Source: Pseudomonas vranovensis DSM 16006 (GTDB lineage: Bacteria > Pseudomonadota > Gammaproteobacteria > Pseudomonadales > Pseudomonadaceae). From it: 64,000 nucleotides of DNA. A program made the position numbers and the translations under genes. Under the pieces are notes generated by a model that was not told the DNA's origin, ran no database searches, and worked only from the letters and a program-made list of their open reading frames with translations. Positions 11,453-18,699 of the stretch are shown piece by piece. The stretch covers positions 124,001 through 188,000 of the forward strand of contig NZ_AUED01000003.1 in assembly GCF_000425805.1 (NCBI RefSeq), written 5' to 3'. The stretch's first letter is position 1. Each line of letters opens with the position of its first letter.

Positions 11453-12538
11453 TTAGTGTTGGCGGCGCCAGGCGCGCAGGGTCGTGTACAGCAAGCAGGC
11501 TCCCAGCGCTGGCAGTGCATAGAACAGCATCAGTTTTTCCAGGCGGGTGGCCAACGGCATGCCCGTGGTGAAGGCCACCACGTGCAGTCCATAGGCCAGG
11601 TACAAACCGAGAAACACCAGACCTTCGGCGCGGGTGACCCGGTAACCCGAGTAGAACACCGGGAGGCTCAAGGCGGCGACGCCAAGCATCACCGGTAGGT
11701 CGAAATCCAGGGCATTGGGCGAAATGGACAAGGGCTCGGGCGCAATCAGGGCAGTCAGGCCGAGCACCGCCAGCAGGTTGAAGAGGTTGCTGCCGATCAC
11801 GTTGCCCACGGCGATCTCCCGTTCACCCCGCAGGGCCGCGATCAGCGATGTCGCCAGCTCCGGTAGCGAGGTGCAGACCGCCACGACCGTCAGGCCGATC
11901 ACCCGCTCCGACAGTCCAAGGTCCACCGCCACTTCCACGGCGGCCTCCAGCAACAGGTGCCCGGCAAGGCTGAGCAAGCCCAGGCCCGTGAGCATCATCA
12001 GAAGGCTGGTGATCCAGAACCCGCCACCTTGCTGCGGCCGTGGGCCGGGGGCAGGGTAGGTACGAGCATAGTGACGCGACTGATGCCAGAGGATTGCCAG
12101 GTAGCCCACCAGGCCTGCCAGTAGCAGCGCACCTTCCAGGCGTCCGAGCAGTTCGTTGAGGGCCAGCAGATAGACCAGCAGGCTGGCGCCGATCATCAGG
12201 GGGATGTCCAGGCGCACCAGTTGGCGCGAGACGCGCAGCGGAATGATCAGCGCAGCCAGGCCCAGGGTGACGAGGATGTTGAAGATGTTGCTGCCGACCA
12301 CGCTGCCCACCGCCACATCCGGTGCGCCGGTATAGGCGGCCTGGAGGCTGACGGTCAGTTGCGGTGCGCTGCTGCCGAAGGCCACCAGGCTCAAGCCGAT
12401 GATCAACGGGCGTACCTGCAGGCTGGCGGCCAGGCGCAAGGCGGCGCGCACCAGCAGTTCGGCACCGGCGATCAGCAACAGCAGGCCGAAGCTCAGTTGC
12501 AGCAGGCTGAAGGTGGGTAAAGCGGCCAGGTCGAAAAT
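11453..12538 (-). CDS. Calcium/sodium antiporter (CaxA/YrbG family), apparent ATT start
   Basis: Inner-membrane cation/Ca2+ exchanger of about 361 residues with two homologous halves. Each half carries the alpha-repeat signature: LVAFGSSAPQLTVS with VGSVVGSNIFNIL, and VVAVCTSLPELATSL with GNVIGSNLFNLL. The protein should exchange Ca2+ (or another cation) against Na+ or H+. The only start that keeps the first helix (FDLAALPTFSLLQLSFGLLL) is an ATT codon seven bases after a GGAG ribosome site; the first conventional start, TTG at 12478, would cut into that helix. An in-frame stop lies just upstream of the ribosome site. It is followed by the CMD-family gene and preceded by the RlpA-like gene, all on the minus strand. 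Confidence 0.85.
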   Translation of the reverse strand: MFDLAALPTFSLLQLSFGLLLLIAGAELLVRAALRLAASLQVRPLIIGLSLVAFGSSAPQLTVSLQAAYTGAPDVAVGSVVGSNIFNILVTLGLAALIIPLRVSRQLVRLDIPLMIGASLLVYLLALNELLGRLEGALLLAGLVGYLAILWHQSRHYARTYPAPGPRPQQGGGFWITSLLMMLTGLGLLSLAGHLLLEAAVEVAVDLGLSERVIGLTVVAVCTSLPELATSLIAALRGEREIAVGNVIGSNLFNLLAVLGLTALIAPEPLSISPNALDFDLPVMLGVAALSLPVFYSGYRVTRAEGLVFLGLYLAYGLHVVAFTTGMPLATRLEKLMLFYALPALGACLLYTTLRAWRRQH

Positions 12539-12558
12539 GGTCGTACTCCGTTACAGGA

Positions 12559-12930
12559 TCAGTCGCTGAGACTTTGTACCCGTACACGCGCCGTTCCGCT
12601 ACGGATCATGCCCAGTTTTTCTGCGGCGGCCTGAGACAGGTCAATCAACCGGCCACGGGTGTGCGGGCCGCGGTCATTGATGCGTACCACGACCGTGCGA
12701 TCGTTTTTCAGGTTGGTGACCTTGACCCGGGTGCCGAAGGGCAGGCTGCGGTGGGCAGCGGTCATGGCGTTCTTGTTGAAGGGCTCGCCACTGGCAGTGC
12801 GTTTACCGTGGTGTCGGGAGCCGTAATAGGAGGCGGTGCCGGTCTTGTCGTAACCGCGGGGATCGATATCGTGGCTGGCGCAGCCGGCCAGCAGGGCAAA
12901 GAGCGCGAGTGCGCTGAGGGGACGCCACAT
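12559..12930 (-). CDS. RlpA-like septal ring/peptidoglycan lipoprotein (small)
   Basis: A 123-residue lipoprotein: signal peptide [17 protein letters not shown] ends in a lipobox (LAGC) and the rest is a single double-psi beta-barrel domain ([19 protein letters not shown], then [27 protein letters not shown]). RlpA proteins are lytic transglycosylases acting on denuded glycans at the septum. This one has no SPOR domain and is far shorter than classical RlpA, so it is a stand-alone family member. The drawn start avoids an upstream in-frame reading that runs through a REP element. It probably heads a minus-strand unit with the antiporter. Confidence 0.87.
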
Positions 12931-12957
12931 GTATGCAAGTGCTCCGGGGGTGTGGCC

Positions 12958-13005
12958 ATCGCGGGCAAGCCCACTCCTACAGGTAGGAGCGGGCTTGCCC
13001 GCGAT
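12958..13005. repeat. REP inverted pair
   Basis: Two copies of a REP core (ATCGCGGGCAAGCCC and its complement, each with the CTCCTAC tail) face each other with a short centre. It lies between the end of gatB and the RlpA-like gene and could fold into a long hairpin in either transcript. Confidence 0.85.
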
Positions 13006-13011
13006 CAGCAA

Positions 13012-17523: not shown

Positions 17524-17631
17524 TGTGCTGGGCTGACGTCCGTGTGGGCGTCATTTTCCGTCAATCCACAAGCAGGCCGGTGCATTGCCGTATGAATGAC
17601 CTCTTGAATAGTCGTCCACGAGGAGCGGCCC

Positions 17632-18699
17632 ATTAAACCGCTTTTCGCCAAGGGCCCTTCGCTGGGCGTACGCCTGCTGGTGCTGGTTGTGCTGTCGATC
17701 ACCCTGATGGTGGTCGATGCGCGCTTCACCCTGCTCAAACCGGTGCGCAGCCAGATGGGACTGGTCCTGATGGAGTCGTACCACATCACCGACTTGCCGC
17801 AGAGCCTGTGGCAGGGTATCGCCGGCCAGTTCGGCAGCCGTACCGAGCTGATCGCCGAGAACGAAAAACTCAAGACCGAAGCCTTGCTGATGCAAGGGCG
17901 CGTGCAGAAGCTCGCGGCCTTGACCGAGCAGAACGTGCGCCTGCGCGAGTTGCTCAACTCCTCGGCATTGGTCAATGAGAAGGTCGAGGTCGCCGAGTTG
18001 ATCGGTGTCGACCCCAACCCGTTCACCCACCGTATCCTGATCAACAAGGGCGAGCGTGACGGCGTGGTCCTGGGCCAGCCGGTGCTCGATGCCCGTGGCC
18101 TGATGGGGCAGGTGGTGGAGCTGATGCCCTATACCGCTCGCGTCCTGCTGCTGACCGATACCACCCACAGTATTCCTGTGCAGGTCAATCGCAACGGTTT
18201 GCGGGCCATCGCCAGTGGTACCGGTAATCCCGAGCGCCTGGAACTGCGCCATGTCGCCGACACCGCCGACATCAAGGAAGGCGACCTGTTGGTCAGTTCT
18301 GGCCTGGGGCAGCGTTTTCCGGCCGGTTATCCGGTGGCCACGGTCAAGGAAGTGATCCACGACTCCGGGCAGCCGTTCGCCATTGTCCGGGCCATCCCCA
18401 CCGCTGCACTCAATCGCAGCCGCTACCTGTTGCTGGTGTTCACCGACAGCCGCACCCCCGAGCAGCGCGCGAGCGATGCCGCGATGGCCCAGGAAGCCGC
18501 AGATCGACAAGGTCTGCCCGGGGCCACCGAGCCGGTTGCGCCCGGCGCGACTCCAACTGCACCTGCACCCGCGGCCACTAGCACCCCGGCAACGCCTGCC
18601 AACGTGGCACCGACAGCGGCGCCTGCAACGGCAGCGCCCGCAGCAACGCCGGCAGCGGCCAGCGGCACTGCGGCACCCCCTTCCCGGGAGAGAAACTGA
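17632..18699 (+). CDS. mreC: Rod shape-determining protein MreC, apparent ATT start
   Basis: Membrane-anchored periplasmic scaffold of the elongasome, about 355 residues. The start drawn is ATT, giving (M)KPLFAKGPSLGVRLLVL, which lines up with the E. coli MreC start MKPIFSRGPSLQIRL; AGGAG lies six bases upstream. An in-frame stop lies close upstream and the next conventional start (GTG at 17680) falls inside the transmembrane helix. A coiled coil follows the helix (about residues 65-105) and then the two beta-barrels (DPNPFTHRILINKGERDGV; VSSGLGQRFPAGYPVATV). The last 60 or so residues are a low-complexity Ala/Pro/Thr tail. Its stop overlaps the mreD start by one base. Confidence 0.93.
   Translation: MKPLFAKGPSLGVRLLVLVVLSITLMVVDARFTLLKPVRSQMGLVLMESYHITDLPQSLWQGIAGQFGSRTELIAENEKLKTEALLMQGRVQKLAALTEQNVRLRELLNSSALVNEKVEVAELIGVDPNPFTHRILINKGERDGVVLGQPVLDARGLMGQVVELMPYTARVLLLTDTTHSIPVQVNRNGLRAIASGTGNPERLELRHVADTADIKEGDLLVSSGLGQRFPAGYPVATVKEVIHDSGQPFAIVRAIPTAALNRSRYLLLVFTDSRTPEQRASDAAMAQEAADRQGLPGATEPVAPGATPTAPAPAATSTPATPANVAPTAAPATAAPAATPAAASGTAAPPSRERN

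Follow-up and report, generated by a model that had tools for sequence, protein, structure and literature searches.

Bacterial genes with atypical start codons

The textbook case of a bacterial gene that starts at AUU is infC. In E. coli, the AUU of this gene stands past a GGAG-type ribosome-binding site, an arrangement that recurs in the calcium/sodium antiporter gene of Pseudomonas described here; infC differs in encoding the discriminating factor IF3 itself, which makes a feedback loop, whereas nothing is known to connect the antiporter with initiation. The available part of PMC5472188 describes the autoregulation of infC, and states that IF3 represses starts other than ATG, GTG and TTG. 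In pcnB of E. coli, an AUU start keeps output low (cited in PMC1780047, available in part), as is proposed below for the antiporter; pcnB is nonetheless another gene, and its frame in the genome under study has ATG and GTG near the front. As of 2007, two proven bacterial AUU starts could be named in the accessible text of PMC1780047, namely infC and pcnB. A further relevant system is sigR of Streptomyces, which starts at GTC in 32 of 34 species and at GTT in the other two, is repressed by IF3, belongs to a translationally coupled operon and has a start that is misannotated in available genomes (PMC5472188, in the part available). Like sigR, the antiporter keeps an odd start through a genus, in what would also be a coupled operon. 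The sigR start differs in being GTC rather than AUU, in being proven by experiment, in belonging to a sigma factor rather than a transporter and in being carried by the leading gene of its pair, whereas the odd start of the antiporter locus lies on the downstream gene. Among the papers listed by a literature search that covered few subscription papers, none was found to describe an AUU start for an antiporter or mreC gene of Pseudomonas.

The antiporter gene and its start codon

The window (the whole stretch of 64,000 nucleotides of Pseudomonas vranovensis DSM 16006 analysed) contains a reading frame (Table 1) whose product, 361 residues long, reaches 244.4 bits with TIGR00367, the calcium/sodium antiporter family (cut-off 179.65), and 203.5 bits against Pfam PF01699 (Na_Ca_ex), which matches it in two stretches. 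A structure model of the product, built with an alignment of 27 sequences (mean pLDDT 84.4), matches the NCX_Mj structures 3v5u and 5hxc (E ~3e-13, TM-score 0.71 by query). Calcium/sodium exchange is the predicted function, named after family TIGR00367. The gene resembles NCX_Mj and the TIGR00367 antiporters in fold and in family score, and differs from members within Pseudomonas that have a sister layout, which use ATG where the window gene has ATT.

A preliminary description of this DNA had placed the start at this ATT, past a GGAG and an in-frame TAA, and all of its coordinates hold. Read on the minus strand, the TAA (12553-12551) is followed by CGG AGT ACG ACC, the ATT (12538-12536) and TTC GAC, and the stop codon that ends the frame lies at 11453. 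Between the TAA and codon 20 of this frame there is no ATG, GTG or TTG. Among 35 long ORFs in the window, 11 have at least 20 codons ahead of their first conventional start, and in only two of these 11 is the composition of that stretch coding-like, as scored with a codon-use table trained on the same 35 ORFs: mreC (0.24 bits per codon) and the antiporter (0.41 bits per codon for the full 24 codons and 0.60 when just the last 20 are counted).

Table 1. Features of the antiporter and mreC loci in the window
Feature	Position	Strand	Observations
Antiporter CDS, read from ATT	11453..12538	-	361 codons + stop; TIGR00367, PF01699, NCX_Mj fold
TTG, first conventional codon of the antiporter frame (residue 21), rejected as start	12476..12478	-	in predicted helix 1; not common to relatives, without SD
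ATT, proposed antiporter start codon	12536..12538	-	ATT 116 + ATC 9 in 125 aligned loci
GGAG ribosome-binding site of the antiporter	12546..12549	-	7-nt spacer to ATT; at 5-9 nt in 123/125 loci
In-frame TAA closing the antiporter frame upstream	12551..12553	-	sequence
RlpA-like lipoprotein gene	12559..12930	-	Pfam DPBB_1 95.8 bits; TGA 12561-12559
GAGGAG ribosome-binding site of mreC	17620..17625	+	6-nt spacer to ATT 17632
mreC (presumed)	17632..18699	+	ATT 32, ATC 6, ATA 1 in 39 loci

Conservation of the start codon among relatives

A search of the genus gave a match in 281 of 298 genomes, and the aligned codon was examined in 151 antiporter loci, in batches of 30, 80, 30 and 11, drawn for the most part from the head of the match listing and hence a non-random sample. 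By distance from the RlpA-like gene, the first 140 loci divide into 116 of a close layout and 24 of a wide layout. Two misfits among the 116, L106 (an ATG that follows the RlpA-like gene by 33 nt) and L143 (GAT as its aligned codon, with an in-frame TTG adjoining), were dropped, and the remaining 114, which include the window locus, were joined with the 11 later loci, in which the upstream gene was not checked, into a set of 125. An order-wide search gave a match in 124 of 145 genomes, and the copies outside the genus were all distant ones. In two genomes of the collection (G108 and G290), the antiporter matches lie in pieces, one G290 piece containing an internal TAA, and these are apparently broken copies.

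The aligned codon is ATT in 105 and ATC in nine of the 114 loci and ATT in all 11 later ones, giving 116 ATT, nine ATC and no ATG in 125, a degree of conservation that rules out coincidence. The preliminary description had left to orthologues whether the codon is ATG or ATT; counting the two misfits, it is ATT or ATC in 125 of 127 loci of close or unchecked layout. Bases 1 and 2 (A, T) are invariant and base 3 is T in 92% of the 114 loci. Internal Ile codons of the same stretch are mostly ATC in these loci (ATC 1033, ATT 273, ATA 26), so that ATT at the start runs contrary to codon bias. Residue 2 varies while the ATT is kept (ATT TCC, ATT ACC, ATT CTC), and sequence conservation extends right to the ATT. 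A GGAG stands 5-9 nt 5' of the aligned codon in all but two of the 125 loci. That the codon reflects faulty sequencing or assembly, the other doubt raised at the outset, is refuted by the recurrence of the identical ATT in 116 of 125 assemblies; this reading was rejected and its probability is negligible.

Conventional codons offer little in place of the ATT. Upstream, the open frame has no ATG, GTG or TTG in 104 of the 125 loci, and such a codon lies within 12 codons in three, in each case two codons up (ATG in L052, TTG in L056 and L070); the ATG of L052 sits 1 nt past GGAG. Downstream, the real start could be the internal TTG at 12478 or another conventional codon, with the conserved upstream stretch forming a leader. 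TTG can serve as a start codon, and the form of the protein that begins there still scores 238.8 bits, above the TIGR00367 cut-off, with eight model positions lost, so that family scores alone cannot decide the start. Against this, the predicted helix 1 of the structure model spans residues 9-40, and a start at residue 21 would remove over a third of these; the full helix needs the ATT, in agreement with the preliminary description, and gene-calling software that accepts just ATG, GTG and TTG would truncate it. The first downstream ATG, GTG or TTG is moreover unshared, ranging from codon 3 to codon 51, an SD core precedes it in none of the 125 loci, and conservation reaches beyond the TTG to the ATT. 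The TTG was consequently rejected as the start, and initiation at a conventional codon is very improbable. From the conservation of the codon across loci, we infer that translation of the antiporter almost certainly initiates at AUU or, in some relatives, AUC.

Loci from named species give a similar picture. Twenty were examined of 80 among the matches listed, out of 583 related stretches; 16, all from Pseudomonas, have the close layout and four are of ATG or GTG type. The 16, at least four of which share genomes with the set of 125, were kept out of that total, and they have ATT in 15 cases and ATC in one (P. parafulva). An in-frame TGA abuts the ATT in two of the 16, P. graminis being one, and so leaves no room for an upstream start. 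Sites weaker than GGAG (GGAC, GGTG or AGGTG) precede the ATT in five loci, L327 and those of P. viridiflava (L328), P. graminis (L330), P. avellanae (L331) and P. capsici (L332). P. khavaziana (L329) has a TTG two codons upstream, 5 nt past GAGG, and is likely an exception to the ATT start.

The neighbouring lipoprotein gene and locus layouts

The gene upstream of the antiporter encodes an RlpA-like lipoprotein and may start at the ATG at 12930. In a comparison of three genomes over 12559-13011 of the window (minus strand), the codon aligned at its putative start was ATG, CTG and ATG. In one relative (L066, genome G178), a long G run followed by a long C run lies upstream of it, perhaps an assembly artefact.

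The TGA of the RlpA-like gene ends 20 nt before the antiporter ATT in the window, and in the 116 close-layout loci 10-31 nt separate its stop from the aligned codon. Such proximity on the same strand would suit a fusion with, or a frameshift product of, the RlpA-like gene, in which the ATT would be an internal Ile codon. In-frame stops nevertheless occur within 12 codons upstream of the aligned codon in 52 of the 125 loci and directly before the ATT in the two named loci above, the gap lengths vary out of register between loci, and codon use at the ATT position is opposite to that of internal Ile. Fusion or frameshifting was rejected on these three grounds and is scarcely credible.

The sister layout comprises 24 loci at 50-55% identity, in which the RlpA-like gene lies 72-136 nt before the aligned codon and the antiporter has an ATG start 85-154 nt past the lipoprotein gene; in L101 and L104, the first ATG is without an SD and the next ATG is the likelier start. 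Each of the 24 sister loci (L080, L082 and L084-L105) has a promoter-like TANACT box no more than 70 nt upstream, a count made with no control set, and the box serves as a lead only. Judging from this layout, which uses ATG, AUU is dispensable in the antiporter family. The AUU form accompanies tight packing behind the RlpA-like gene, which suggests coupling.

Probable selection on the weak start and a proposed mechanism

On a tree of the loci, the third base of the start codon needs at least six changes, and seven internal Ile columns need 3, 5, 7, 7, 17, 26 and 28. Ordered by slowness, the start-codon column comes eighth among 81 conserved columns, sharing its count of 6 with others, against a median of 22. 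Slowness of the third base alone is not exceptional, and the aligned loci are related by descent; what is unusual is that the column is slow on ATT rather than ATC and that ATG is missing. The AUU could on this footing be a frozen accident, tolerated by virtue of a good SD and coupling and serving no regulation, a reading that fits both the six third-base changes, which are inside the range of the internal Ile columns, and the single lineage formed by the antiporter genes of the aligned loci. ATG is, however, one base away from ATT and is absent from all 125 loci, whereas weak starts elsewhere drift to AUG: in a study of 36 genome groups, starts reconstructed as GUG changed to AUG at a rate of 0.040, and those reconstructed as UUG at 0.017 (PMC5622118, available in part). 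This contrast indicates selection; maintenance of the weak antiporter start by selection is probable, and a mere accident unlikely.

We consider it quite likely that the locus as a whole is explained by a weak AUU start that is discriminated against by IF3, is probably coupled to the upstream gene and is selected for low output. The antiporter mRNA would be read from the AUU at 12538, which initiator tRNA would decode as fMet, with the GGAG 7 nt upstream positioning the ribosome on it. IF3 would disfavour this AUU, allowing little antiporter protein to be made per mRNA. Given the gap of 10-31 nt, ribosomes just finishing the RlpA-like gene would probably supply much of the initiation. Low antiporter output would be favoured, and AUU, or rarely AUC, would be kept without a switch to AUG. 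The sequences themselves show which codon stands there, how far it lies from the GGAG, how widely it is kept and that no conventional start is usable instead; low output and control of the antiporter by IF3 are what we infer by analogy with the systems described above. Taken as a claim of its own, the coupling of antiporter translation to the lipoprotein gene is evenly balanced between acceptance and doubt. In E. coli, extra IF3 reduces re-initiation (PMC2268962, available in part).

Other genes with AUU starts

The preliminary description had also pointed to a second AUU start in the same window, and this too is borne out: a plus-strand gene, presumably mreC judging by its product, has GAGGAG, a 6-nt spacer and ATT at 17632. 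In the first 30 mreC loci the codon is ATT in 29 and ATC in one; nine further loci, eight of them from genomes with an ATG-type antiporter or without an antiporter match, have ATC in five, ATT in three and ATA in one. Four of these nine (L299, L300, L302 and L306) also have an in-frame GTG or TTG 2-14 codons upstream. A blastn search of the mreC DNA against E. coli genomes gave no match. E. coli MreC probably has an ATG start at the aligned place. The mreC gene keeps ATT, ATC or ATA in all 39 loci, including those of genomes whose antiporter starts at ATG. Together with the close-layout antiporter, mreC makes up a pair of neighbouring membrane-protein genes that are natural targets for testing why weak starts are selected.

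A wider suggestion, that rare starts may be commoner in this genome than gene callers assume, was borne out only weakly. A three-genome scan over about 400 kb gave 95 trios; in 91 of them the N-terminal region is conserved, and 62 reach 60% identity or more to both relatives. A conserved conventional start lies near the conserved region in 50 of the 62. The 12 trios without one gave four codon matches: the ATT of mreC, an adjoining AAA, the ATT of the antiporter and one TGC, taken to be in a frame extension upstream of its own ATG; the remaining trios of the 12 looked like genes with displaced starts or like frames that extend into the neighbouring gene upstream. Identical odd codons preceded by an SD also occur among the 50 (CTC 4, CCT 3, ATT 1 and others), and one codon shared by three genomes therefore proves little without larger sets. 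A conserved, SD-preceded ATT with no conserved conventional start was found in two of the 62 trios, mreC and the antiporter. Odd starts in this genome, as judged from these comparisons, are real but few.

That infC, mreC and the antiporter form a set which, through conserved AUU/AUC starts, ties cell-wall elongation and calcium export to the amount or activity of IF3, such that a stress lowering IF3 function would raise all three, is a speculative and rather improbable extension. In infC of the genus (L229-L258), an ATT stands past GGAG in all 30 loci, with a spacer of 8 nt in 29 and 9 nt in one. Nine of these 30 infC loci also have an ATG two codons earlier, merely 2-3 nt past the GGAG.
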